A stretch of DNA of 64,000 nucleotides from Bradyrhizobium sp. STM 3843 (GTDB taxonomy: Bacteria > Pseudomonadota > Alphaproteobacteria > Rhizobiales > Xanthobacteraceae), in the NCBI RefSeq assembly GCF_000239815.1, contig NZ_CAFK01000299.1:124001-188000 (forward strand). The letters are read 5' to 3'. Every line of letters starts with the position of its first letter. The first letter of the stretch is position 1. A program made the position numbers and the translations under genes. The notes beneath the pieces were generated by a model. It saw nothing but the letters and a program-made list of their open reading frames with translations, did not search any database and was not told where the DNA came from. Below are positions 26,914 to 43,081 of the stretch, in pieces.

Positions 26914-27234
26914 ATGATCACAGCGGCTCAATTGCGGGCGGCCAGGGTGCTCCTCGGTATCGATCAGCGGCGGCTCGCGGAAATGTCCGGGCTTTCCGTG
27001 CCAACCATCCAGCGTATGGAGGCTAGTGGGGCAATGGTTCGGGGCAATGTCGATTCGCTGGTGAAGCTAATTGCGGCGCTCGACGCCGCCGGCATTGAGT
27101 TGATCGACGAGCGGGCTGTCAGTAACGCCGAAGGACGCGGGGTGCGGCTGAAACTCAATTCCGGTTCGGCAAAAATCCATTTGGATAGTCGGACTGCAAA
27201 CAAAGCATCTAGCAGAGCGAAGGTGCGTACGTAA
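26914..27234 (+). CDS. XRE-family transcriptional regulator, first gene of the Ehr operon
   Basis: A 106-residue protein with a helix-turn-helix of the XRE/Cro type at about residues 5-60 (QLRAARVLLGIDQRRLAEMSGLSVPTIQRME) and a short tail ending with basic residues. Its stop overlaps the next start (TAATG), so it is translated with hyfB. It is clearly paralogous to the regulator at 34661-34981, which closes the operon on the other strand. It probably binds the promoter region at 26820-26870. Confidence 0.85.
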   Translation: MITAAQLRAARVLLGIDQRRLAEMSGLSVPTIQRMEASGAMVRGNVDSLVKLIAALDAAGIELIDERAVSNAEGRGVRLKLNSGSAKIHLDSRTANKASSRAKVRT

Positions 27235-29249
27235 TGTCGGCTGTCGTTCTGCAAATGCTGTGTGTTGCCGGGCTGCTTGGATCGGCCGTTCTGGCAATCG
27301 TTCTGAGTCGCTCGAAGATCGCTACCGCCATCATCTATAGCGCAACCTTGTCCGCGTCTGCGATCGCGTTGATTGGATCCATCCACTGGTTGCTTGGCGA
27401 CACGGCGAACGCTGTCGATCTGACCCTCCCGATCGGATTGCCATGGCTTGGCTCGCATTTCCGCCTCGACCCGTTGGCCTCGTTCTTCCTTGTTGTCGTC
27501 AACCTCGGAGGAGCAGTGGCAAGCCTTTATGGCCTCGGCTACGGTCACCACGAGGCGGCGCCCCACCGTGTGCTTCCCTTTTTCCCCGCCTTTCTGGCCG
27601 GCATGAATCTCGTGGTGCTGGCAGATGATGCGTTTTCCTATCTGCTGTGCTGGGAATTCATGTCGTTGGTCTCTTGGGCGCTGGTGATGGCGCACCACCG
27701 TGAAGCGGGCAACGCGAAGGCTGGCTACGTCTATCTGGTGATGGCGAGCTTTGGCACGCTCGCACTGCTGCTGGCTTTCGGCCTGCTTGGGGGGCCGGCG
27801 GGCGATTACGGATTTGCGGCCATTCGCGCGGCTCCGCATACACCCTACGTGGCCACGTTGGTGTTGATCCTGATGTTGCTCGGAGCCGGTTCAAAGGCCG
27901 GCCTGGTGCCGTTGCATGTCTGGCTGCCGCTCGCTCATCCCGCGGCTCCAAGCCACGTTTCCGCGCTGATGAGCGGTGTCATGACCAAGGTCGCGATCTA
28001 CGGCTTCATTCGCGTCGTGTTCGATCTGCTGGGGCAGCCGTTATGGCCGGCAAGCGTTATCGTCCTCTTCCTTGGCGGCGTCACCGCAGTCATGGGTATT
28101 TTGTACGCCATGATGGAAAAGGACCTCAAACGCCTGCTCGCTTACAGCACGATCGAAAATGTCGGCGTCATCTTCGCAAGCCTCGGCCTTGCGTTGGCCT
28201 TCCAGGCCAGTGGGCTGAAACTCCTGGCCGCGCTCGCCTTCACTGCGGCGTTGTTTCACGTTCTCAATCACTCCTTCTTCAAGAGTCTGCTTTTCTTCGG
28301 TGCCGGCGCCGTCCTGACCGCAACGGGCGAGCGGGACATGGACAAATTAGGCGGCCTCATTCACCGCATGCCTCTTACGAGCTTCGCCGTTCTCGTCGGA
28401 TGTGTCGCGATCTCGGCGCTCCCGCCCTTCAACGGCTTCGTCTCGGAATGGCTCATGTTCCAGGCCGTGCTGCAGAGCCCCGAGTTGTCGCAATGGGCGC
28501 TGAAGATCACGGTGCCTGCGGTCGGTGCGCTATTGGCCTTGGCTGCTGCGTTGGCCGCGGCGTGTTTCGTCAAGGCATACGGCGTGACCTTTCTCGGGCG
28601 GCCGCGCGGCGCCACGGCGGAAACCGCTGAGGAAGTGGATCTCTACTCGCTTTCAGCAATGTTCATCCTCGCCGCGCTTTGCTTGTTGGCCGGGATTCTT
28701 CCTGGGCTGGTGATCGACTCGCTTTCGCCGATCACGCTACAGATCCTCGGTGGCCGCATGCCGGTCCAGGCCAACGAACCTTGGCTTTCGATCGCGCCGA
28801 TTGCGGAGAGCCGTAGTTCATACAACGGCTTGCTCGTGATGGTGTTCATCACGATTTCCGCTTCGTTGGCCGTCGTCTTTATTCATCGCTTTGCCTCTCG
28901 CGCGTTGCGGCGGAGCCCGGCCTGGGGCTGTGGCTTTTCCGATCCGACGCCCGCGGCCCAATATTCGGGCGGAAGCTTCGCCCAGCCCATTCGCCGCGTT
29001 TTCGGTACGCTCGTGTTCCACGCCCGCGACCATGTTGAGATGCCGCCCCCCGGAGATATCAAGCCGGCCCGGCTGCGAATCGAACTGCACGATCTGATCT
29101 GGGAGAGAATGTATGAGCCGATAGCAGGCGCGGTTGGCTTCTCATCCGATAAACTCAATCGCCTGCAATTCTTGACCATACGCCGGTATCTCAGCCTGGT
29201 TTTTGTCACCCTCGTCACGCTCCTTCTGGTTCTCGCGATATGGTCGTGA
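27234..29249 (+). CDS. hyfB: hydrogenase-4-like membrane subunit HyfB (NuoL/N/Mrp antiporter family)
   Basis: A 671-residue protein with about 16 membrane helices. It carries the antiporter-family core: the conserved glutamate in LCWEFMSLVSWALV (about residue 142), the lysine in GAGSKAGLVPLHVWLP, and the HPAAPSHVSALMSGVMTK segment. The C-terminal soluble part around GCGFSDP resembles HyfB. The protein forms one of the ion-pumping modules of complex I-like membrane complexes. It starts immediately after the XRE gene (TAATG). It is not a plain NuoL, as judged from the gene order B-C-E-F-G-I. Confidence 0.85.
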   Translation: MSAVVLQMLCVAGLLGSAVLAIVLSRSKIATAIIYSATLSASAIALIGSIHWLLGDTANAVDLTLPIGLPWLGSHFRLDPLASFFLVVVNLGGAVASLYGLGYGHHEAAPHRVLPFFPAFLAGMNLVVLADDAFSYLLCWEFMSLVSWALVMAHHREAGNAKAGYVYLVMASFGTLALLLAFGLLGGPAGDYGFAAIRAAPHTPYVATLVLILMLLGAGSKAGLVPLHVWLPLAHPAAPSHVSALMSGVMTKVAIYGFIRVVFDLLGQPLWPASVIVLFLGGVTAVMGILYAMMEKDLKRLLAYSTIENVGVIFASLGLALAFQASGLKLLAALAFTAALFHVLNHSFFKSLLFFGAGAVLTATGERDMDKLGGLIHRMPLTSFAVLVGCVAISALPPFNGFVSEWLMFQAVLQSPELSQWALKITVPAVGALLALAAALAAACFVKAYGVTFLGRPRGATAETAEEVDLYSLSAMFILAALCLLAGILPGLVIDSLSPITLQILGGRMPVQANEPWLSIAPIAESRSSYNGLLVMVFITISASLAVVFIHRFASRALRRSPAWGCGFSDPTPAAQYSGGSFAQPIRRVFGTLVFHARDHVEMPPPGDIKPARLRIELHDLIWERMYEPIAGAVGFSSDKLNRLQFLTIRRYLSLVFVTLVTLLLVLAIWS

Positions 29250-30196
29250 TGTCAGACATTCTTGTGCAAGGCGTGCAGATGCTTCTTGTGCTGCTGCTGG
29301 CGCCGCTGCTGACCGGCTTTGTACGCAAGATCAAGGCTCGCTTGCTTCGTCGCCAGGGGGCGTCGGTCATTCAACCGTATCGAGATCTCCTGCGATTGCT
29401 CCGCAAGGAAGTCGTGCTGGCGGACAACGCCTCCTGGCTGTTCCGCGTGACGCCCTATGTCACCTTTGCCGCGATCTGGGTTGCCGCCGCCCTGGTGCCG
29501 ACCTTTGCCACCGGCCTCCTCTTCAATTGGACAGCGGACCTGATTGCCATCGTGGCGCTGCTCGGAAGTGCGCGCTTCTTTCTTGCACTCGCCGGGATGG
29601 ACGTCGGCACCAGTTTTGGTGGCATTGGCTCCAGCCGCGAAGTGATGATTGCGGCGCTTGCGGAGCCAGCGATGCTGCTGTTTGTATTTTGCATTGCGCT
29701 GGTTGCCGGCTCGACCCAACTTTCGACGGTCGCAAATTTCATAGCCTCGTCGTATGTCGGCTTACGGGTATCGCTAGGGATGGCGATGATCGCGCTCATC
29801 ATGGTCGCGCTCGCAGAGAACGCGCGAATTCCAGTCGACAATCCCGCCACGCACCTGGAACTCACCATGGTGCATGAAGCAATGGTTCTCGAATATTCGG
29901 GACGTCACCTTGCGATGATCGAATTTGGCGCCTCCCTCAAGCTGTTGCTTTATATTTCGCTGATCGCGTGCGTGTTCCTCCCCTGGAAGATAGCAGTCTT
30001 CGGTACCGGCCCGTTGTCCTACGCCATCGGCGCTGTCGCGTACCTCGTTAAGCTCACGACTGCTGGTTTTTTCCTCGCGCTGTTCGAAACAGCCACGGCG
30101 AAAATGCGCGTCTTTCGCGTCCCCCAATTTCTCGGTGCGGCCCTCATGCTGGGCCTGCTCGGCACACTCCTCCTGTTCGTGTCAAAGAGCTTCTGA
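29249..30196 (+). CDS. hyfC: hydrogenase-4-like membrane subunit HyfC (NuoH-like)
   Basis: A 315-residue, eight-helix protein of the NuoH/HycD/HyfC family. It contains LLRLLRKE and ENARIPVDNPATHLELTMVHEAM, the conserved quinone/loop region that contacts the large subunit. ATG 29249 overlaps the hyfB stop (TGATG); an upstream ATG at 29240 is also in frame. In complex I the subunit links the ion pump to the quinone-proximal arm; in hydrogenases it links to the catalytic arm. Confidence 0.88.
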   Translation: MSDILVQGVQMLLVLLLAPLLTGFVRKIKARLLRRQGASVIQPYRDLLRLLRKEVVLADNASWLFRVTPYVTFAAIWVAAALVPTFATGLLFNWTADLIAIVALLGSARFFLALAGMDVGTSFGGIGSSREVMIAALAEPAMLLFVFCIALVAGSTQLSTVANFIASSYVGLRVSLGMAMIALIMVALAENARIPVDNPATHLELTMVHEAMVLEYSGRHLAMIEFGASLKLLLYISLIACVFLPWKIAVFGTGPLSYAIGAVAYLVKLTTAGFFLALFETATAKMRVFRVPQFLGAALMLGLLGTLLLFVSKSF

Positions 30197-30864
30197 TGCA
30201 GATGCACAGCCTCGAATTCGACATCTCGCATGCGCTCGCAGGCGGGCTCGTCCTGATCAGCTTCATGATGCTGTACCAGGACCGGCTCTACTCACTGCTC
30301 AACGTATTCGCACTGCACGCTCTGGTGCTCGCGCTTTCCGTTGCCTGGCAAGCCTTCATCCAGAACGCACCTCATCTTTACGTGACCGCGGCAATCGCCC
30401 TCGTCTTCAAGGCAATCGTCATTCCCGTCGCGCTTCACCGCATTATCAAACAGCTCGGGATTCACCGCGACATCGAGTCGGCGGTGGGGATCGGTCCGAC
30501 CATGCTGGCAGGGATGGGGCTCGTCGCCCTCTCCATGGTGCTGATCCTGCGGGTGACCGCAGAGGCAGACCCTTTGGCGCGGGAGGATATCGCCTTTGCC
30601 TTGTCGGTCGTGCTGCTCGGACTTCTGGTCATGGTAACGCGCCGCAACGCTGTCAGTCAGGTCGTCGGATTCATGTCGCTTGAGAACGGACTGGTGCTCG
30701 CAGCGACCGGTGCCAAGGGCATGCCTCTCGTCGTTGAGATCAGCGTCGCCTTCTCGATCCTGATCGCGTTCATCGTCATCGGCATCTTCCTGTTCCGGAT
30801 CCGCGAACGCTTCGATTCGGTTGATGTCTCCGCACTCGACGACTATCGGGGCGAACGGCGATGA
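30196..30864 (+). CDS. hyfE: hydrogenase-4-like membrane subunit HyfE
   Basis: A 222-residue, seven-helix protein of the HyfE family, related to NuoK (SLENGLVLAATGAKGMPLVVEISVAF is the NuoK-like region). It starts on the stop of hyfC (TGATG) and overlaps hyfF by four bases. It is a structural part of the membrane arm. Confidence 0.85.
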   Translation: MQMHSLEFDISHALAGGLVLISFMMLYQDRLYSLLNVFALHALVLALSVAWQAFIQNAPHLYVTAAIALVFKAIVIPVALHRIIKQLGIHRDIESAVGIGPTMLAGMGLVALSMVLILRVTAEADPLAREDIAFALSVVLLGLLVMVTRRNAVSQVVGFMSLENGLVLAATGAKGMPLVVEISVAFSILIAFIVIGIFLFRIRERFDSVDVSALDDYRGERR

Positions 30865-32312
30865 ACCCGCATTCCTTCGACCCGGTGGCGGCGGTTCTGC
30901 TGATCCCGATCGGCTCGGCAGCGTTGTTGGCCATGCTGCCGGGCTACCGGCTGACGGCGCGGCTGAACGTCGTCGCAAGCTTGGCGACATTTCTGTCGGC
31001 GCTCTTGTTGTTCGTGATCGAGCGTCCACAACCAGGGCCATACGTGCTGGTCGACGACCTCAACATCGTCTTCATCGTGCTCAACACCTTCGTGGGATTT
31101 ACGACCAGCATCTTCAGCGCGAGCTACATCGCGCATGAACTCGAGACCGGCCGGTTAACGCCGGTCTACCTGCGATTCTATCACGCCATGTACCAGACCA
31201 TGATGTTCGGCATGAACCTCGCTTTCGTGTCGAACAATATCGGCCTGATGTGGGTGGCGGTGGAGATCGCCACCCTGACCACGGTGCTGATGGTCGGCAT
31301 CTATCGCACGCACGCCGCTCTGGAAGCAGCATGGAAATATTTCATCCTCGGCAGCGTTGGAATTGCGTTCGCGTTGTTCGGCACGATTCTGGTCTACATG
31401 GCGGCGCGCCCGGTGGTTGGCGAGGGCCAGGACGGCATGATCTGGACTGCCTTGGTCGAGCATTCGCAAGCTTTCGATCCCGCGCTTCTTAATGTCGCTT
31501 TCATCTTTTTGTTTCTCGGCTACGGCACCAAGGTCGGGCTGGCACCACTTCACGCCTGGCTGCCTGACGCCCATGCCGAAGGTCCGACGCCGATTTCCGC
31601 CGTGTTGTCGGGCCTGCTGCTCAACGTCGCGCTTTATGCGTTGTTGCGCTTCAAAATATTGCTTGCGGCAAATCCGGCGGCAATTGCTCCCGGGCCCCTG
31701 ATGGTGACGATGGGGCTGCTTTCACTCGTGTTCGCGGCGTTCATGCTCTACCGCCGGCGCGATATCAAGCGGCTGTTCGCCTATTCCTCGATCGAACATA
31801 TGGGCATCATCGTCTTTGCGTTTGGGATGGGCGGCCCTCTGGCTAATTTCGCCGGGCTTCTCCACATGGTGATGCACAGCCTCACCAAGTCGGCGATTTT
31901 CTACGCTGTCGGCCACATCTCGCAGATCAAGGGAACGCAGCGGATCAGCAGGATCCGGGGCTTGACCGTGAGCCATCCGGCGCTGGGCTGGGGTCTGGTG
32001 ACGGGCGTGGTCGCGATCGCCGGCTTGCCGCCGCTCGGCATTTTCATGAGCGAATTCCTGGTCGTAAGCTCGACCTTCGCGCGCCAGCCCCTGCTCGCAA
32101 TCGTACTGGTGCTCGGGCTGTTGTTAGCGTTCGGTGCATTGACGTTGCGCCTGACAAGCGTCGCATTCGGTGAGCCTCGCGGCAGCACCAAGCCTGCCGA
32201 GGCTTCTTATGTGCCGATGTTTGCGCATCTTGCACTGGTTCTGATGGCGGGGATCTATCTTCCCGCGCCGCTCGTCGTCTGGTTCCAGCATGTAGCTCGT
32301 CTTTTAGGATAG
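30861..32312 (+). CDS. hyfF: hydrogenase-4-like membrane subunit HyfF (NuoL/M family)
   Basis: A 483-residue, ~14-helix antiporter-like subunit with FLGYGTKVGLAPLHAWLPDAH, the conserved Lys/His/Asp network, and KRLFAYSSIEHMGIIV. It is the second ion-pump module of the complex, so the operon codes for two such modules (HyfB and HyfF). Its ATG overlaps the hyfE stop (ATGA). It lacks the long lateral helix of NuoL. Confidence 0.87.
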   Translation: MNPHSFDPVAAVLLIPIGSAALLAMLPGYRLTARLNVVASLATFLSALLLFVIERPQPGPYVLVDDLNIVFIVLNTFVGFTTSIFSASYIAHELETGRLTPVYLRFYHAMYQTMMFGMNLAFVSNNIGLMWVAVEIATLTTVLMVGIYRTHAALEAAWKYFILGSVGIAFALFGTILVYMAARPVVGEGQDGMIWTALVEHSQAFDPALLNVAFIFLFLGYGTKVGLAPLHAWLPDAHAEGPTPISAVLSGLLLNVALYALLRFKILLAANPAAIAPGPLMVTMGLLSLVFAAFMLYRRRDIKRLFAYSSIEHMGIIVFAFGMGGPLANFAGLLHMVMHSLTKSAIFYAVGHISQIKGTQRISRIRGLTVSHPALGWGLVTGVVAIAGLPPLGIFMSEFLVVSSTFARQPLLAIVLVLGLLLAFGALTLRLTSVAFGEPRGSTKPAEASYVPMFAHLALVLMAGIYLPAPLVVWFQHVARLLG

Positions 32313-32330
32313 TTTAGGGATTAGCCGGAC

Positions 32331-33842
32331 ATGCCATCGCTGATCGATCTCATGCTTGAGGGCCGCTCGGTCCAACAACACAGCCCGTGGCCGCGAGTTG
32401 CGGTCGATGCTTCGGTATGGACATTTGCCGCAAGCGAGCTGGCACAGGGACGCTGGAGCCTGCTCGGCCTTTGGGGAGAACTCTCAACGGTGCACATGGC
32501 GATCATGGATGGACATACGGCAGAGATCGCCACCGTCAGCCTGGACTGCCCTGATCACAGTTATCCTTCGGTCGGCAAGCACCACCCGCCGGCGCTTCGA
32601 CTGGAACGCGCTATCTTCGATCTGTTTGGACTGTCGGCCGAAGGCTCAACCGATTCGCGCCCCTGGCTTGATCACAACAATTGGGGCGTACGCTTTCCAC
32701 TGGGAGATCGCATCGACGCGCTGTCGCAGTCGTCGCCCTATCGCTTCCTGCCGGCGGAGGGCGATAGCCTGCATCAAATCGCGGTCGGTCCGGTGCACGC
32801 AGGGATTATCGAGCCCGGGCATTTTCGGTTTACGGCAAGCGGGGAGACCGTGGTCCGTTTGGAGGAGCGGCTCGGATATACCCACAAGGGTATCGAGGGG
32901 CTCATGATTGGCGCCAGTGTGGAGCGAGCTGCTCAACTCGCAGGACGCGTGTCAGGCGACAGCACAGTCGCCTATGCCTTTGCGTTTTCGCGGGCGGCCG
33001 AGGCCGCCTTACAGCTTGTCGTGCCGGATCGTGCAATCTGGCTGCGTGCTCTCCTTGCAGAGTTCGAGCGGCTCGCCAATCATCTCGGCGACATTGGGGC
33101 GATCTGCAACGATGCCTCTTTCGCGCTGATGCAAGCTCACTGCGGCGTGTTGCGCGAGAGCGTCCTACGTGCATCAAATGCAGCATTCGGTCATCGCTTG
33201 ATGCGGGATATTGTCGTGCCCGGTGGCGTGACCCATGACCTGAACGGCGACGGGACAGCAATCATCCGAGCGGCGCTGGCTAACATCCGCCGGCGGTTTC
33301 CGGCTTTGGTCGAATTATACGACAACACCGCATCCCTGCAGGATCGTACGGTGGATACCGGCGTGCTCAAGCCAACGCTAGCCAGGCAATACGCCGCCGG
33401 AGGCTACGTCGGCCGCGCGTCTGGCCGATCCTTTGACGCGCGCCGGACACTGGCCTACCCGCCGTATGACAGTTTGCACTTTGAAGTACCGGTCCTGACT
33501 GAGGGCGATGTCAATGCGCGCGTCTGGATCCGCGTGCGTGAGGTTGAGCAGAGCCTCTCTTTGATCGACCAGATATTGGACCGCCTTCCCGAGGGTTCGA
33601 TCGGAACGCGTGTGGCGCATCGGCCGGAGCCGCGCGAAGGCATGGCAATCGTCGAGGGATTTCGCGGCGACGTTTTGATTTGGCTGCGCTTACAGGATGG
33701 GCGGGTGGAACGATGCCACCTGCGCGACCCCTCATGGTTTCAATGGCCGCTCCTGGAAGCTGCCATCGAGGGCAATATCGTGGCAGATTTTCCGCTCTGC
33801 AATAAGTCGTTCAACTGTTCCTATTCGGGCCAGGATCTCTAG
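32331..33842 (+). CDS. hyfG: hydrogenase-like large subunit HyfG without NiFe ligands
   Basis: A 503-residue fusion of a NuoC-like N-terminus (to about residue 120, with LERAIFDLFGL) and a NuoD/HycE-like large subunit. In NiFe hydrogenases two CxxC pairs bind the metal. Here the first pair is replaced: GRVSGDSTVAY (S208, S211) stands where HycE has RVCGICGFAHSTAY. The C-terminal pair DPCYSC is replaced by SFNCSYSGQDL (residues 493-503). The conserved HKGIEGLM helix is kept. It therefore cannot form a NiFe site and belongs to the Ehr class of hydrogenase-related complexes. The gene follows hyfF by 18 bases. Confidence 0.88.
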   Translation: MPSLIDLMLEGRSVQQHSPWPRVAVDASVWTFAASELAQGRWSLLGLWGELSTVHMAIMDGHTAEIATVSLDCPDHSYPSVGKHHPPALRLERAIFDLFGLSAEGSTDSRPWLDHNNWGVRFPLGDRIDALSQSSPYRFLPAEGDSLHQIAVGPVHAGIIEPGHFRFTASGETVVRLEERLGYTHKGIEGLMIGASVERAAQLAGRVSGDSTVAYAFAFSRAAEAALQLVVPDRAIWLRALLAEFERLANHLGDIGAICNDASFALMQAHCGVLRESVLRASNAAFGHRLMRDIVVPGGVTHDLNGDGTAIIRAALANIRRRFPALVELYDNTASLQDRTVDTGVLKPTLARQYAAGGYVGRASGRSFDARRTLAYPPYDSLHFEVPVLTEGDVNARVWIRVREVEQSLSLIDQILDRLPEGSIGTRVAHRPEPREGMAIVEGFRGDVLIWLRLQDGRVERCHLRDPSWFQWPLLEAAIEGNIVADFPLCNKSFNCSYSGQDL

Positions 33843-33853
33843 GGACCGCACAA

Positions 33854-34387
33854 ATGCGCAAGCTGCTCTTCCAAAGCCTGTTCCGGCCGCCATTGACCGA
33901 GCAGGCGCCGTTGCCAGACGACACCGCGGTAACCGAGCTCGCAACAGCGGTCGGTCGCGCTGCGCGGCGACACCTCGGCCGAAGTCTCTCAATACGCGAG
34001 GTCGACGCCGGATCCTGCAATGGATGCGAACTTGAAATCCACGCGTTGAATAATGCCTACTACGACATCGAGCGCTTCGGTCTCAAGTTCGTGGCCTCGC
34101 CACGGCACGCAGACGTGCTGATGGTGACGGGACCGGTGACGAAGAACATGCGCGACGCGCTGGAGCGCACCTATCACGCGACCCCGAATCCGAAATGGGT
34201 CGTCGCCGTGGGGGATTGCGCCCGCGATGGCGGTTGCTTCGCCGGCAGCTATGCGGTGGCGGGAGGGGTCTCGCAGGTAGTTCCCGTCGATCTTCATATT
34301 CCCGGTTGTCCTCCCTCTCCCACGATGGTCTTGCAGGGACTTCTTGCCTTGCTCGATCGAGCGGCCCCAAACGCCACTTCGGCGTAA
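33854..34387 (+). CDS. hyfI: hydrogenase-like small subunit HyfI (NuoB-type 4Fe-4S)
   Basis: A 177-residue subunit with the complete NuoB-type ligand set for the proximal 4Fe-4S cluster: SCNGCE (C55, C58), GDCARDGGC (C122) and IPGCPPSP (C152). It would pass electrons to or from the site in HyfG. It is the last gene of the operon, 11 bases after hyfG. No hyfA/H-type ferredoxin gene and no hyfD are found, so the cluster is smaller than in E. coli. Confidence 0.88.
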   Translation: MRKLLFQSLFRPPLTEQAPLPDDTAVTELATAVGRAARRHLGRSLSIREVDAGSCNGCELEIHALNNAYYDIERFGLKFVASPRHADVLMVTGPVTKNMRDALERTYHATPNPKWVVAVGDCARDGGCFAGSYAVAGGVSQVVPVDLHIPGCPPSPTMVLQGLLALLDRAAPNATSA

Positions 34388-36494: not shown

Positions 36495-37043
36495 CTATGG
36501 AGACATCCCGAGCATGCCTCCCGATACCGACACGAGATCTCCGGTTTCCGCCGCGCGCTCGACCGCATCGATCACTCTGAGGGTTTTCAGCCCCTCATGC
36601 CCGCTGACTACAGGCGCGGCCGTACTACGAATAACTCCACAGAAATTGACGATCTGAAGGCCAAGCGGGTCTTCCCTCTCGTAGCTCAGCCGCTCGCGCT
36701 TGATCGGCGCCCACCAGCTAGCCTTGCTTGGGTGACGCCATAGATCGAGTTGCGGAATAGCCAGCGATGCCCTCGTGCCACCGATCTGGTAACATGTCTC
36801 CGGCGTATGACTGTAAGCCGGGTTCTCACCAGCCGTGAATTCCCAGCTCCAAGGCGATTGGATGGTGTCGGAGACATTGACCGTTCCCAGTGCGCCGGAG
36901 TGAAAGTCCAGGCCGAGTTCCTTGGCCAGCGCGTGACAATCCCGCTCCACATCCGTGAGCGTCTCATGACCGTAGATGTGGGGCTGACGCTTGCCGAGCA
37001 AATTAAGATTTGGCCCGTTGAGGACGTAGACAAGACGACTCAT
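36495..37043 (-). pseudogene. in-frame chimera of AroQ N-terminus and Gfo/Idh/MocA oxidoreductase C-terminus
   Basis: The frame starts [20 protein letters not shown], the start of a type II 3-dehydroquinate dehydratase (AroQ), and keeps PHIYGHETL with its catalytic Tyr. After about residue 49 the sequence switches to a different family: [39 protein letters not shown], and [20 protein letters not shown] are from the C-terminal domain of a Gfo/Idh/MocA NAD(P)-dependent oxidoreductase. The AroQ catalytic His and Arg are lost and the oxidoreductase has no Rossmann domain, so neither activity is likely. An in-frame deletion between two adjacent genes explains it. GGAG precedes ATG 37043. Confidence 0.75.
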
Positions 37044-37056
37044 AGAATAACTCCGT

Positions 37057-37803
37057 TCAGTGATGGGCGAGGATCTCGCCAAGGAACTGCCTGGTGCGGG
37101 CGTGCTGTGGATTGCGGAAGAAAGCGTCGGGCGCGCCTTCTTCGATGATCTGCCCATCAGCCATGAAGATCACGCGATCAGCAACTTGGCGGGCAAAGCC
37201 CATCTCATGTGTCACGCAAATCATGGTCATGCCATCGTTGGCGAGGCCGATCATCGTATCGAGCACTTCCTTGACCATTTCCGGATCGAGAGCCGAGGTC
37301 GGCTCATCAAACAGCATCACCTTGGGCTGCATGCAAAGCGCACGCGCGATCGCGACACGTTGCTGCTGACCGCCCGAAAGTTGAGCCGGATACTTCTCGG
37401 CTTGATCCCCGATGCGCACCCGCTCGAGATACTTTCGCGCGATCGCCTCCGCCTCGGTCTTGCTGATGCGGCGCGCGCGAATCGGAGCGAGCATGCAGTT
37501 CTGCAACACCGTCATATGTGGGAAAAGGTTGAAGCTCTGAAACACCATGCCGACGTCCTGACGTACGACATCGATCGCCTTGATGCTGTCGTCCAGCCGA
37601 TGACCGTTCACGACAATGCTGCCCTGCTGGATCGCCTCCAGGCGGTTGATGCAGCGGATCAGCGTCGACTTGCCCGAACCGGACGGACCGCAGAGCACGA
37701 TCTTTTCACCTCTCCGCACGGTGAGATCAACGTTGCGGAGAGCTTGATACCCGCCGTACCATTTCTGCACGCCCTTCATTTCGATCAGGATCTGGTCCTG
37801 CAT
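37057..37803 (-). CDS. polar amino-acid-type ABC transporter ATP-binding protein
   Basis: A 248-residue ATPase of the GlnQ/HisP type. Walker [10 protein letters not shown], the signature LSGGQQQR, Walker [15 protein letters not shown] and the H-loop CVTHEMGFA are intact. GGAGA precedes ATG 37803. It is encoded with a binding protein and two permeases, the standard layout for polar amino acid or related organic acid uptake. The gene ends 13 bases before the chimera at 37043, so that relic lies at the 3' end of the operon. Confidence 0.93.
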
Positions 37804-37859: not shown

Positions 37860-38687
37860 CTACTGGACGGTGAACGGAACGCCAGGGATCTGGTCGGGGA
37901 AGGTCGGCACGGGCACCTTCATCCATTTGGCGTAGAAGGCGGCCAGCTTGCCGTCCGACTTGATCTGGTCGATGAACTTGTTGACCGTCTCGTTCCACTC
38001 CTTCTCTCCCAAGCGCGTGCATGCGCCGTTATACAGAGCGGTGAAGTGGAGCTTGGGCTCGAACCCAAGTTCTGGCTTTGCGGCGTTCAGACGCTGCGGG
38101 TAGAACAAGTTCGCGCCGACGGCCTGGACCTGGCCGGAGAGCAGCGCCTGTATCGTGGCCGCGTCATCGTCGAATCGGCGGATCTCGGTGCCCGACGGAG
38201 CGTTGTTGGTGACCTGGGTGTCTTGCGTTGAGGAGCGCGGGACGCCGATGACATATTTGCCCATATCGGCATTGCTGTTGATCGGCGTTGCCTTGGCTGC
38301 GACAAGCGTGATCTCATTGGCGACATACGGCTTGGAATACTGCACCGCCTTGGCGCGCTCCGGCAGCATGGCCATGGTCGCAAACAGGATGTCCACACGG
38401 CCCGTGGTCAGTGCCGGGATACGATTGGCCACGGCCAGCGGCGTGAATTCGGCCTTCACGCCAATGTATTCAGCGAACGCACGCCCCATGTCGGCATCGA
38501 TGCCATCCTGCTTTCCCGAGCTATCGACATAGCCCCAGGGAGGATTGTCGCCCTGAATGCCGATGACGACGACGCCCTTCTTCTTCACGTCCTCCAACGT
38601 GCCGGCCTGCACTTTGCCTGCTGTGGCGAGCGCCGCCAATACGAGCAGCGCAATGCCGAGCTGGCGGCGAGTGATCGAAAATTGCAT
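37860..38687 (-). CDS. ABC transporter substrate-binding protein, amino-acid family
   Basis: A 275-residue periplasmic protein. The signal peptide is [22 protein letters not shown] (about residues 7-28). The mature part starts [29 protein letters not shown] and contains the SBP family 3 signature of [16 protein letters not shown]. It captures the solute for the two permeases. The neighbours, which include two shikimate-dehydrogenase-like enzymes and a CoA-transferase, suggest a cyclic or aromatic acid rather than an ordinary amino acid as the ligand, but the sequence alone does not decide it. Confidence 0.9.
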
Positions 38688-38744: not shown

Positions 38745-39401
38745 CTACCTTTGACTGGCCAGGGCGAGCCTGGCTTCCATCCGGCTGCCCCACCATGAGA
38801 GTGGCCAGCAGAGGATGAAATACATTGCGCCGACCACGCCGAAGACGAGCAGCGGCTGGAAGGTCTGGTTCGATACGATTTGACCGGCGCGGGCGAGTTC
38901 GATGAAGCCGACGATGGCGGCCAGCGAAGTGCCCTTGATGAGCTGGACGAGATAGCCGATCGTTGCCGGCAGCGAGATGCGGGTCGCCTGCGGAAGCACA
39001 ACGTCGCGCATGCGGGATGAATAGTGCAGTCCGAGCGCCATCGCCGCCTCGGTCTGACCGCGCGGCACGGCCTGTATCGCTCCGCGCCAGATCTCACCAA
39101 GGAAGGCCGAGGCATTCACGGTGAAGCCGATCGCCACCGCGACGAAGGCTTCGAGCTTCAGCCCGGTCAGCGCCAATCCGTAATACACGACGAACAGCTG
39201 CAGCAGCAGCGGAGTGCCCTGGAATATCCCGATGTAAATGCGGACGATCCATTCCACGCCCTTGTGACCGCAGGTGCGCAGCAATGCGACAGCCAGCCCC
39301 GCCGTGCAGCCGCCCGCAAACGCGACCAGCGTAAGCAGCATCGTCCATTGCAGTCCACGCAGCAGGAAGCCGAACTCAGGGAGGCCAAAATGCGGTGCCA
39401 T
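38745..39401 (-). CDS. amino-acid-type ABC transporter permease
   Basis: A 218-residue HisM/GlnP-type permease with about five membrane segments and the EAA loop EAAMALGLHYSSRMRDVVLPQATR. It pairs with the permease at 39412. Its start lies 11 bases after the stop of that gene. Confidence 0.9.
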   Translation of the reverse strand: MAPHFGLPEFGFLLRGLQWTMLLTLVAFAGGCTAGLAVALLRTCGHKGVEWIVRIYIGIFQGTPLLLQLFVVYYGLALTGLKLEAFVAVAIGFTVNASAFLGEIWRGAIQAVPRGQTEAAMALGLHYSSRMRDVVLPQATRISLPATIGYLVQLIKGTSLAAIVGFIELARAGQIVSNQTFQPLLVFGVVGAMYFILCWPLSWWGSRMEARLALASQR

Positions 39402-39411
39402 GATCTCCCCC

Positions 39412-40080
39412 TCAGCGTGTCGGATATGAGAAGAAGCGGTGAGAGATGACGGCGAAGCTCAGCATCAACAGCCAGGAGATCGCGAGATAGAGGAAGGTAA
39501 CGAAGAAGTAGACCTCGAAGCTGCGGAACGTGTCGCTTTCGATGCGCTGCGCAACCGACGTCAATTCGTAAGCCGACACCGCCGAACAGATCGACGAGGT
39601 CAGCGTCAGCATGATGAACTGACCCGTGAGCGAAGGGTAGATCGCGCGAAGCGCGGGCTTGAGCACAATGAACCGGAAGACCTGCCCTTTGTGCAGTCCG
39701 AGCGCGTAGCCGGCCTCCAACTGTCCTTTATGAATGGATTGTACCCCGCCGCGGATGATCTCGATGGCGTAGGCGCCGCCATTGACACCGAGTGCGATAA
39801 CGGCGGTGGCTGTCGGATTGAGCTTCAATCCGATGAGCGGCAGGGCGAAGAACAGAAAGAAGATCTGCACCAGGAAAGGTGTATTGCGCACGATCTCGAC
39901 GAAACCGATCACGAGAGCACGCAGCCATGCCGCCTTCGAATCGCGTGCCGCGACGCCGGCGACACCGATGATCATTGCGAGCGTCATTCCGGCCAGCGCC
40001 AGGCCCAAGGTGCCCACGCATCCCCACAGCAGCGCGGGCATCGCATGCCAAACCACCGAGAAATCAAGCGTGTAGCCCAT
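39412..40080 (-). CDS. amino-acid-type ABC transporter permease
   Basis: A 222-residue permease with five membrane segments and the EAA loop EAGYALGLHKGQVFRFIVL. Together with the permease at 38745 it forms the membrane pore. It follows the shikimate-dehydrogenase-like gene in the same operon. Confidence 0.9.
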   Translation of the reverse strand: MGYTLDFSVVWHAMPALLWGCVGTLGLALAGMTLAMIIGVAGVAARDSKAAWLRALVIGFVEIVRNTPFLVQIFFLFFALPLIGLKLNPTATAVIALGVNGGAYAIEIIRGGVQSIHKGQLEAGYALGLHKGQVFRFIVLKPALRAIYPSLTGQFIMLTLTSSICSAVSAYELTSVAQRIESDTFRSFEVYFFVTFLYLAISWLLMLSFAVISHRFFSYPTR

Positions 40081-40131: not shown

Positions 40132-40995
40132 TCATCCTCCCAGAGATATGAAAGTCGCAAGGAAGATGTCTGGATCAGGTGAGATGCCCGTGAACAGGCG
40201 GAAAGCTTCGGTGCCCTGGAAGATCGCCATGCCACCACCATCGACGGTGCGGCAGCCGAGGGCACGCGCCGCGCGCAACAGTGCGGTCTCGAGCGGGAAG
40301 TAGACGATCTCGGCGACCCAGAGACTCGGACGCAGCAGAGCAGTCGGCAGCGGCGTCCCTGGATACTTCTCCATGCCGATCGGCGTCGCGTTCACAATTC
40401 CGTCTGCGGCAGCCACGGCGGCTGCGACGTCCTGGCCGACCTTCAGGCGCCCGTTTTCGAATCGAGAAGACAACCCGTCGACCACGCTCCGCGCCTTTGG
40501 CAAGTCGACATCTATGACCGTCAGATCCTGCACGCCAAGCTTCATGAGCGCGAACGCAACCGCGGCGCCCGCGCCACCCGCGCCGAACTGGACGACGCGG
40601 CCGAGCGGAGCACCTTGCATGTTGCGGCGAAAATTCTCCGCGAAGCCGAACCAGTCCGTGTTGTGGCCGGTCATTCGGCCATTCCTGATGACCACGGTGT
40701 TCACGGCGCCAAGCGCTTCTGCATCCGGCGAGAGCTCGTCCAGCAGCGGAAGGATCGCCTGCTTGCAGGGATGGGTCACGTTAAGCCCATCGAAGCCCAT
40801 CCACTTTGCTGCCGTGAGCAATTCCGGCAAGGCTTCGGCATCAAGGTTCAACTCTGCCAGATCGATCTTCTTGTAGAGATAGCGGATACCGGCCGCGTCA
40901 GCCGCGGCTTGGTGCATCGGCGGGGTGCGCGACGCCGCGATGCCACTGCCGATCAGACCGACGAGAAAGCTGGGTTTCGGATGGACCGCCAACAT
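40132..40995 (-). CDS. quinate/shikimate dehydrogenase-like protein (AroE family, YdiB type)
   Basis: A 287-residue member of the shikimate dehydrogenase family. NVTHPCK with catalytic Lys78 and NTDWFGF with Asp114 form the active site, and GAGGAGAAVAFAL is the nucleotide-binding loop. The extended 'GIGYLYKKIDL' and 'D' patterns are nearer to YdiB-type quinate/shikimate dehydrogenases than to biosynthetic AroE, although this is an impression and not a phylogeny. It probably oxidises quinate or shikimate (or a relative) for use as carbon source, with the second AroE-like enzyme next door. The start of 40995 is the only ATG near the expected N-terminus. Confidence 0.88.
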   Translation of the reverse strand: MLAVHPKPSFLVGLIGSGIAASRTPPMHQAAADAAGIRYLYKKIDLAELNLDAEALPELLTAAKWMGFDGLNVTHPCKQAILPLLDELSPDAEALGAVNTVVIRNGRMTGHNTDWFGFAENFRRNMQGAPLGRVVQFGAGGAGAAVAFALMKLGVQDLTVIDVDLPKARSVVDGLSSRFENGRLKVGQDVAAAVAAADGIVNATPIGMEKYPGTPLPTALLRPSLWVAEIVYFPLETALLRAARALGCRTVDGGGMAIFQGTEAFRLFTGISPDPDIFLATFISLGG

Positions 40996-41008: not shown

Positions 41009-41836
41009 TCAGGTCAAGGGAACGGTTAGCTTGGCGATCACCTCAGCCGTGCTCGGCCTGACGCCGCGCCACCAGACAAAGGCTTCCGCCGCTTGCTCGA
41101 CCAGCATGCCGACACCGTCCGCCAGCTTGGCTGCGCCCGCTGCGCGGGCAGCGTGTAGAAAAGGGGTCAATCCTTTGCCATAAGCGAGTTCGTACGCCAG
41201 TTCCGCGCCCTGGAAGACATTACTTGGCAGTGGGGGCGTTTCGCCTCGCAGGCTGGCCGAGGTCGCGTTGACAACGACGTCATAGCCTTCGGCGAGATCG
41301 GCCAGTTCAGCATAGCCGCTGACGATCAGGGGACCGCGGCCCGCAAACTCGTCAGCCAGTGCCACCGCTTTCGACAGTGTTCGATTGACGAGAACCAGCT
41401 CGGAAGGCTCCTGGCGCAGGAACGGCAGCAGCGCACCACGCGCCGCCCCTCCAGCGCCGAGCATCAGGACGCGGCGGCCCTTCATCTTCACAGCGAGGTT
41501 CACGGTGATGTCGCGCACAAGGCCGACACCGTCGAAATTCTCGGCAATGACCCGGTCGTCCTCGAACTTCAGGCAGTTTGCGGCGCGAGCGCGTCTGGCG
41601 CTCTCCGAAAGCTCGGTTGCGTAGGCAAAAGCATCAAGCTTGAACGGGGCGGTGATGTTCAACCCCTTGGCGCCCTCAGCGCGGAATTGATCGACCCGTG
41701 CGGCAAAGCCGCCAATCGGGCCCTCGATCGCTTCATAGGAGAGGTCCTGCCCGGTCATTTTGGCGAACGTGCCGTGGATGAAGGGGGACTTCGTGAACCC
41801 GATCGGATTGCCTATCACGGCATAGCGGTCAGTCAT
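41009..41836 (-). CDS. aroE: shikimate dehydrogenase (AroE)
   Basis: A 275-residue enzyme with NITAPFK and catalytic Lys66, and NFDGVG with Asp102 (the usual motif is NTDG, so the Thr is Phe here). GAGGAARGALLPFL binds NADP; VNRTLSKA gives the NADP-favouring Arg. It interconverts shikimate and 3-dehydroshikimate. Its stop lies 13 bases from the start of the second family member at 40995, so two paralogous dehydrogenases are in tandem. As the operon is catabolic in appearance, this copy is probably not the biosynthetic one. Confidence 0.88.
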   Translation of the reverse strand: MTDRYAVIGNPIGFTKSPFIHGTFAKMTGQDLSYEAIEGPIGGFAARVDQFRAEGAKGLNITAPFKLDAFAYATELSESARRARAANCLKFEDDRVIAENFDGVGLVRDITVNLAVKMKGRRVLMLGAGGAARGALLPFLRQEPSELVLVNRTLSKAVALADEFAGRGPLIVSGYAELADLAEGYDVVVNATSASLRGETPPLPSNVFQGAELAYELAYGKGLTPFLHAARAAGAAKLADGVGMLVEQAAEAFVWWRGVRPSTAEVIAKLTVPLT

Positions 41837-41839
41837 CGC

Positions 41840-43081
41840 TCACTCCTCCACGGCGGCTTCGTTGTAGAGAACGCCGTCGCGGACCATCGCATCGACATTC
41901 TCCAGCGAAAAACCGAGCGATGCGGCAATGCGGCGGTTATCCTGCCCAAGCAGGGGTGCCGGAGTGCGTACCCTGGTGTCACAGTCGGAGAAGCGAAAAG
42001 GCAGGTTTGGCAATGTCACCTTGCCGAGCACCGGATGCTGCTGCTCGACCAGCATGCCGCGGGCATGGATCTGCGGATCCCTCACGACCTCTTCGATGGT
42101 CTGCACAGGAGCGGATGGCACACCTGCTTCCTCGAGTGCGGCAAGACAGGCATCCCGGGACGGCTGCGACAGCGTCCAGTTGCGCACAATCTCCATTGCC
42201 TCGGCATAATGAGCGTTCCGCGCGGCAGGCCTGGCAAAGCGCTCGTCGGATGCGAGCGCGTTTCCACCGATCAGCGTCGCCAATCGTCGCCACGCGTCAT
42301 CGACCTGCGCGGCGATGACAAGATTGCCGTCCTTGGCGGGGAAGACTCCGTAGATGGTCGAGTCTGGTTGTCCGCTGCCGGTCTGCTTGGGCAGGTCGGT
42401 GCCGCCGGAGAGGAAGTAACGCTGAACCGCGTAATCGTGCATCGAAACCATGCAGTCGTACAGCGCCAGATCGATGTGCTGGCCGCGGCCGGACGATGCG
42501 CGACCAACCAGCGCCGCATTGATCGCTGCGACACCGTGAATGCCGGTATACATGTCGGCCAGCGGCATCCGCAGCAGCGGCGGTGCTTCACCGGGCGAGC
42601 CCAGTTGCGCCAGCGCGCCCGACATCGCCTCTGCGATCAGGCCGAAGCCCGGACGGTCGGCATAGGGACCGGTGTGGCCATAGGCGGAGACCGAGCAGTA
42701 GATCAGCCTGGGATTCCGCGTGGACAGCGCCTTGTAACCGAGCCCGAGACGCGCGAGTGCGCCAGGGCGGTAGTTCTCGATGAAGACGTCGGCTGTGTCG
42801 ACCAGCTTCATCATCATGTCGAGACCACGCGTGTCGCGCAGGTCGATGCACAATCCCTGCTTTCCCATGTTCTGCTGAAGGAAGTAGCCGGATTGGCCGT
42901 CCTTGAAATACCCATGGGCGCGGCCCGCATCGCCTTGCTTCGGACGCTCCACTTTGATGACTTCCGCGCCCATCGCGGCGAGGCAGCGGCCCATGAAGGG
43001 ACCTGCCAGGAAATGGCTGTAGTCGATAACGCGAATGCCTTTGAGCGGCAGATCTTGGAGCGGCAGATCTTGCGCGGTCAT
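41840..43081 (-). CDS. CaiB/BaiF (family III) CoA-transferase
   Basis: A 413-residue family III acyl-CoA transferase. It contains DYSHFLAGPFMGRCLAAMGAEVIKVE and catalytic Asp176 in LADMYTGIHG. The reaction moves CoA between carboxylic acids through an Asp-CoA thioester. Family III enzymes next to MaoC dehydratases activate dicarboxylic or branched acids. The N-terminus has a short duplication (QDLPLQDLPLKG). ATG 43081 overlaps the MaoC stop (ATGA). Confidence 0.92.
   Translation of the reverse strand: MTAQDLPLQDLPLKGIRVIDYSHFLAGPFMGRCLAAMGAEVIKVERPKQGDAGRAHGYFKDGQSGYFLQQNMGKQGLCIDLRDTRGLDMMMKLVDTADVFIENYRPGALARLGLGYKALSTRNPRLIYCSVSAYGHTGPYADRPGFGLIAEAMSGALAQLGSPGEAPPLLRMPLADMYTGIHGVAAINAALVGRASSGRGQHIDLALYDCMVSMHDYAVQRYFLSGGTDLPKQTGSGQPDSTIYGVFPAKDGNLVIAAQVDDAWRRLATLIGGNALASDERFARPAARNAHYAEAMEIVRNWTLSQPSRDACLAALEEAGVPSAPVQTIEEVVRDPQIHARGMLVEQQHPVLGKVTLPNLPFRFSDCDTRVRTPAPLLGQDNRRIAASLGFSLENVDAMVRDGVLYNEAAVEE

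Follow-up and report, generated by a model that had tools for sequence, protein, structure and literature searches.

A short open reading frame (ORF) in Bradyrhizobium sp. STM 3843 joins the beginning of aroQ (type II 3-dehydroquinate dehydratase) to the end of a Gfo/Idh/MocA oxidoreductase gene (gfo), and we are highly confident that it is what a deletion left of two neighbouring genes in an operon. It lies in a 64,000-nucleotide stretch of genomic DNA, referred to here as the window, and is a clean example of a chimeric ORF produced by a deletion between neighbouring genes, which may be named in annotation after one of its parents.

Results

Structure of the fused ORF

The first-pass annotation had proposed an in-frame fusion of aroQ with an oxidoreductase gene, without giving the strand. 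We confirmed this by detecting two Pfam domains within a single minus-strand frame, whose parts are as follows.

37043..36495, minus: fused ORF, 182 aa (ATG at 37043, TAG at 36495-36497)
36907..37043, minus: 5' segment of aroQ, about residues 1-46 of 149; 92% DNA identity to aroQ of the related locus L014 over 134 bases
36897..36912, minus: junction zone, with CCTG common to both parents; per-position support in 31 intact loci
36525..36906, minus: 3' part of gfo, from about residue 217-220 to the last (344); 90% DNA identity to L014 gfo over 387 bases
36495..36524, minus: read-through tail, nine codons and a new stop, set beside the tails of 31 intact loci

The ORF contains 182 codons plus the stop, while the plus strand of 36495-37043 is interrupted by a stop. 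The mechanical ORF list opens the frame earlier, within the ABC gene at 37157 (220 aa); the aroQ start of relatives corresponds to position 37043.

DHquinase_II was found at residues 5-48 (E 3e-12, profile positions 2-45 of 138), matching the N-terminus of the AroQ family (PF01220 / TIGR01088) and stopping at profile position 45. GFO_IDH_MocA_C was found at residues 45-172 (E 2.9e-4, profile 89-217 of 218), matching the later stretch of the Gfo/Idh/MocA C-terminal domain (PF02894), with a score of 21.2 bits that lies slightly below the gathering score of 22.9 bits. Chance does not explain this second half, because residues 45-173 are up to 89% identical to Bradyrhizobium oxidoreductases; the protein match covers gfo residues 216-344. 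The nine residues after residue 173 derive from neither parent gene and are present because the stop codon of the relatives' GFO is absent. Compared by eye, the lost stop resembles an indel of ~5 bp just past the last gfo codon. The two-part order given in the first-pass annotation stands, with the one correction that its oxidoreductase part does not include these last nine residues.

The parent genes are adjacent in related genomes

A search of genome contigs with the fusion found 189 relatives, and the best 80 loci were kept. In L008, L014, L015 and L023, aroQ (149 aa) is followed after 6 bases by a 344-aa oxidoreductase gene. Among the best 80 of the 189 loci, 77 showed an aroQ match that covered 141 or more of the 149 residues and ended within about 310 bases upstream of gfo; the exceptions were two loci with aroQ and gfo ~4 kb apart and one in which the contig ended inside gfo, this contig-cut locus alone having no aroQ on the stretch. 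In L024, one of the 77, the gfo match was split into two overlapping pieces in a frameshift-like manner. The pair occurs, among the same best 80, in Bradyrhizobium, Bosea, Sinorhizobium/Ensifer, Rhizobium, Mesorhizobium, Shinella and others, and because it is present in several genera, it probably predates the genus Bradyrhizobium. The comparison of the locus in relatives that had been suggested therefore recovered both original genes, adjacent and collinear, and supports the expectation that the original operon held both a dehydratase and an oxidoreductase.

For a closer view of the genus, 60 Bradyrhizobium loci were taken by their close aroQ, 53 of them at ≥83% DNA identity and seven more divergent; the set was selected via the 5' part of aroQ, so it represents loci that have kept that part, and it leaves out further divergent ones. 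In all 60, aroQ is full length (146-151 aa). The following gfo counts as intact, with 330 aa or more in an open frame, in 37 loci. In 15 others it is partial or its frame is broken, the smallest remnant being 34 bp, and in the remaining eight none was detected within 2.5 kb. Exactly 6 bases separate the aroQ stop from gfo in 31 of the 37 intact loci. One further locus, L041, with a match starting at query residue 22, was considered as a possible second fusion and rejected, as separate full-length genes are present there.

A net 969-bp deletion preserved the frame

The fusion equals the intact aroQ-gfo arrangement minus a net 969 bp, with about two thirds of each gene gone. Its oxidoreductase part is offset by 969 bp relative to 30 of the 31 intact loci, and by 965 bp relative to the remaining one, L122, whose aroQ and gfo lie 4 bp closer together. 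Because 969 bp corresponds to 323 codons, the frame is preserved across the junction. The first-pass suggestion of a deletion between two adjacent genes is thereby supported, since the parents lie next to each other in relatives in the predicted order and differ from the fused locus by this net length.

Support for aroQ ends, and support for gfo starts, between 36912 and 36897. Joining the parents once, at CCTG, leaves within ten bases about four that differ from gfo sites that are nearly invariant in relatives. The junction can also be read as aroQ minus 6 bp, running on to TTTCAC, with gfo joined at TCCGGC, which leaves zero substitutions against some relatives and requires two in-frame events (chance about 1 in 9). 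The junction may thus reflect one 969-bp deletion with about four substitutions, or deletions of 6 bp and ~963 bp, and we prefer neither.

In the course of events that we propose, the ancestral order would have been ABC ATPase, aroQ (149 aa), 6 bp and gfo (344 aa), as it still is in most relatives examined. A net 969-bp deletion, its length divisible by three and each of its ends in or near the shared CCTG, would have taken out two thirds of aroQ at its 3' end, the gap, and 63% of gfo at its 5' end, thereby joining the two frames, and the gfo stop codon would have been lost in an additional small change. The resulting ORF would occupy the place of aroQ, where transcription and translation with the operon may be possible.

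With a relative's 1491-bp aroQ-gfo stretch as the query, the deleted DNA turned up nowhere else in the strain's own genome: the matches were two adjacent pieces at this locus, followed by 40 short ones with E values of 0.006 or worse. We also rejected the idea that either parent survives as an intact second copy at another place, as DNA and protein searches of the genome showed none. The genome holds two further AroQ-like open frames, which share 54% and 38% identity with L014 AroQ and could still provide dehydroquinate dehydratase activity; no other close GFO was found in the genome, the next best match being 33% identical.

The fusion is confined to one genome in the searched set

A fusion shared by many strains with the same boundary had been named in the first-pass annotation as the sign of a functional protein. 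We looked for it across species (one genome per species) with a 241-bp junction query. Some match was obtained in 177 of 265 genus genomes, and a full-length match in one, the strain's own; the other matches, among those listed, were partial and fell on one parent or on other aroQ-like DNA. Likewise, the whole protein (residues 1-182) was matched in one of 195 genomes, again its own, among the matches listed. Full matches to the junction DNA or to the 182-aa protein would rank outside the weak end of these match lists. The fusion is not conserved as a unit across species.

We also built an operon tree from the DNA of the ABC ATPase gene and aroQ, with 54 rows comprising 53 of the 60 loci and the fused locus; the seven omitted loci had no ATPase match (five with intact gfo, two with gfo absent). 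The fused locus groups, with 95/96 support, with L172, L163 and L164, in which gfo is intact, and with L157, in which gfo has its full extent and a frame break, a lesion unlike that of the fused locus. Because the nearest rows are intact or differently broken, the loss that made the fusion falls on this genome's own branch.

Catalytic parts are missing from both halves

The fusion keeps about 46-50 of the 149 AroQ residues, the N-terminal third, and about 125-128 of the 344 GFO residues. In TIGR01088 it scores 39.5 bits, over residues 5-47 only, against a cut-off of 169.85, while the intact L014 protein scores 190.7 bits; it is thus far from a full-length AroQ domain of about 140-150 aa. The catalytic residues we take, after Mycobacterium tuberculosis AroQ, to be Arg19, Tyr24, Asn75, His81, His101 and Arg112. 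With the AroQ part ending at residue ~46-50, the Arg/Tyr pair near 18-24 is all of this set that can be present. On the oxidoreductase side, an intact relative carries MGAGLIG at around residue 10 and IEKP at around residue 94, which we assume to be the GxGxxG-type motif of the N-terminal Rossmann domain and the EKP lysine motif, respectively. The fusion begins at about gfo residue 217-220 and lacks the NAD(P)-binding domain and the EKP motif, and the first part of the GFO C-terminal domain is likewise absent. Judged from the sequence, neither enzyme can work, because AroQ is reduced to its N-terminal third and GFO has no NAD-binding domain; the first-pass view that no active site is intact holds. 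The fused ORF is most likely a pseudogene.

To see how the surviving codons have changed, dN was compared with 31 of the 37 intact loci (L121 and five divergent ones omitted), excluding junction codons. Mean dN was 0.0599 for the gfo part (122 codons), against 0.0527 (sd 0.0067) for the others, and 0.0480 for the aroQ part (44 codons), against 0.0332 (sd 0.0107), each ranking 6 of 32; the dN/dS ranks were 11 (gfo) and 10 (aroQ) of 32. No significant excess of amino-acid change over these 31 intact loci was found in the surviving codons of either part. Each part has one private amino-acid change at an otherwise invariant site (Fisher p 1.0, from very small numbers). A dN excess this small would fit either a recent deletion on the strain's own branch or an ORF that is still constrained. 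We favour a recent event, because the stop codon has been lost and the fusion is unique among the genomes searched; a residual function is possible.

gfo is broken or missing in many Bradyrhizobium loci

Although aroQ is full length throughout the 60 loci, 23 of them have a broken or missing gfo, and the fused locus is the sole case seen in which aroQ was also damaged. On the operon tree, the difference between intact and broken gfo requires at least 19 changes (18-20 on bootstrap trees), a count that any recombination or regain would inflate; well-supported branches alone, 14 of the 51 inner branches, force 10. The gfo state is not clustered on the tree, as about 450 of 500 shuffles gave counts as low. 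The change count does not separate gain from loss; with the aroQ-gfo pair probably ancestral, many of the changes should be losses. The losses in L128 and L177 resemble internal deletions, and L155, L157 and L161 have single frame breaks in a gfo of full extent, which may be sequencing errors or young lesions.

One tentative reading, which we hold to be rather doubtful, is that Bradyrhizobium species have repeatedly lost gfo under selection while keeping aroQ and the remainder of the operon, and that this strain would represent one such independent loss, in which the deletion ran on into aroQ. As part of that same doubtful reading, the gfo product might, for example, be useless or harmful on some plant compounds. 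The gfo pattern is more useful than the fusion itself, as this gene is a neighbour of aroQ in several alphaproteobacterial genera and is nevertheless so often broken or missing in Bradyrhizobium. Comparing species with and without gfo makes both the function of the operon and the dispensability of the oxidoreductase testable.

Alternative explanations and known counterparts

The fused ORF might be translated and kept for a non-catalytic role, for instance with the C-terminal sheet of the oxidoreductase as a binding or oligomerisation module and the AroQ-derived part as a cap. The frame is open, neither part has a significant excess of amino-acid changes, and fusions made by deletion are reported to be expressed in M. 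tuberculosis (PMC7671302). However, the cut in AroQ falls within its domain, the stop codon has been lost too, the junction is complete in just one of 265 genus genomes, and other losses in the genus have left GFO pieces of such varied extent that no particular one is kept, all of which makes such a role very unlikely. An ancient functional fusion, older than the split of the genus, would share with this idea the open frame and has nothing beyond it in its favour; we give it a close to negligible chance, given that the parents are separate genes across several alphaproteobacterial genera and that the fusion is absent from the other genomes searched (195 by protein, 265 by DNA, among the matches listed).

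It is also conceivable that both full genes are real and that the assembly, a draft in 349 contigs, skipped about 969 bp. The junction, however, lies deep inside a long contig (at least 253 kb), the parents share about 4 bp there and would thus offer little to collapse on, the missing sequence is on no other contig, and the stop codon is altered as well, so that an artefact is highly improbable. A deletion-made remnant of two neighbouring genes accordingly remains our reading, and gene loss of this sort is ordinary. Chimeric genes arising from multigene deletions are described for the ppe38-71 locus of M. tuberculosis, where a deletion over neighbouring genes likewise yields one chimeric ORF (PMC7671302). 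The M. tuberculosis chimera is reported as functional, with one fusion demonstrated at the protein level (PMC7671302), whereas the parents here are unrelated enzymes, both of which have lost catalytic parts.

Operon context

The fused ORF comes last in a run of minus-strand genes, which also contains an ABC importer, two genes of the shikimate-dehydrogenase family and a CoA-transferase gene.

37057..37803, minus: ABC transporter ATPase, open frame, directly upstream of the fused ORF
37860..38687, minus: solute-binding protein (SBP_bac_3), open frame
38745..39401, minus: ABC permease, open frame
39412..40080, minus: ABC permease, open frame
40132..40995, minus: shikimate-dehydrogenase-family gene (PRK12549-like), open frame
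41009..41836, minus: shikimate-dehydrogenase-family gene (aroE-like), open frame
41840..43081, minus: CoA-transferase family III gene, upstream in the same gene run

Farther upstream lie MaoC-like, glyoxalase-like and ketopantoate-reductase-like genes. With two shikimate-dehydrogenase-family genes and AroQ, the earlier description as a quinate/shikimate-type operon appears to be a fair label. Our literature search on this operon (quinate/aroQ/shikimate, Bradyrhizobium) found no paper, which is weak evidence given the limits of the search. A promoter and terminator scan around the fused ORF gave nothing above shuffles. Downstream of the operon, a plus-strand ORF run at 27234-34387 presumably encodes membrane and hydrogenase subunits that look like those of the hydrogenase-4/formate-hydrogenlyase type.

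We also considered decay of the whole operon, using 25 of the 26 loci L008-L033 (L031 omitted; 25 or 26 rows per set). The six upstream genes tested are all open frames, and dN is ordinary for the ABC ATPase (rank 24 of 26) and one permease (15 of 26); the second permease stands at rank 5 of 26. In their respective sets, dN is highest for the solute-binding protein and for both shikimate-dehydrogenase genes, with dS raised too. Whole-operon decay is therefore unsupported by the open frames and the ordinary dN of the ATPase and one permease, even though the results are not uniformly plain.

Two of these genes deserve a separate remark. The solute-binding protein (37860-38687, minus) carries 11 residues that none of 31 relatives shows, seven of them within its first 26 residues, a presumed signal peptide. 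In the shikimate-dehydrogenase gene at 41009-41836 (minus), dN is 0.0715 against 0.0298 among relatives and dS 0.660 against 0.359, a roughly twofold divergence, and this gene is perhaps an allele from another lineage.
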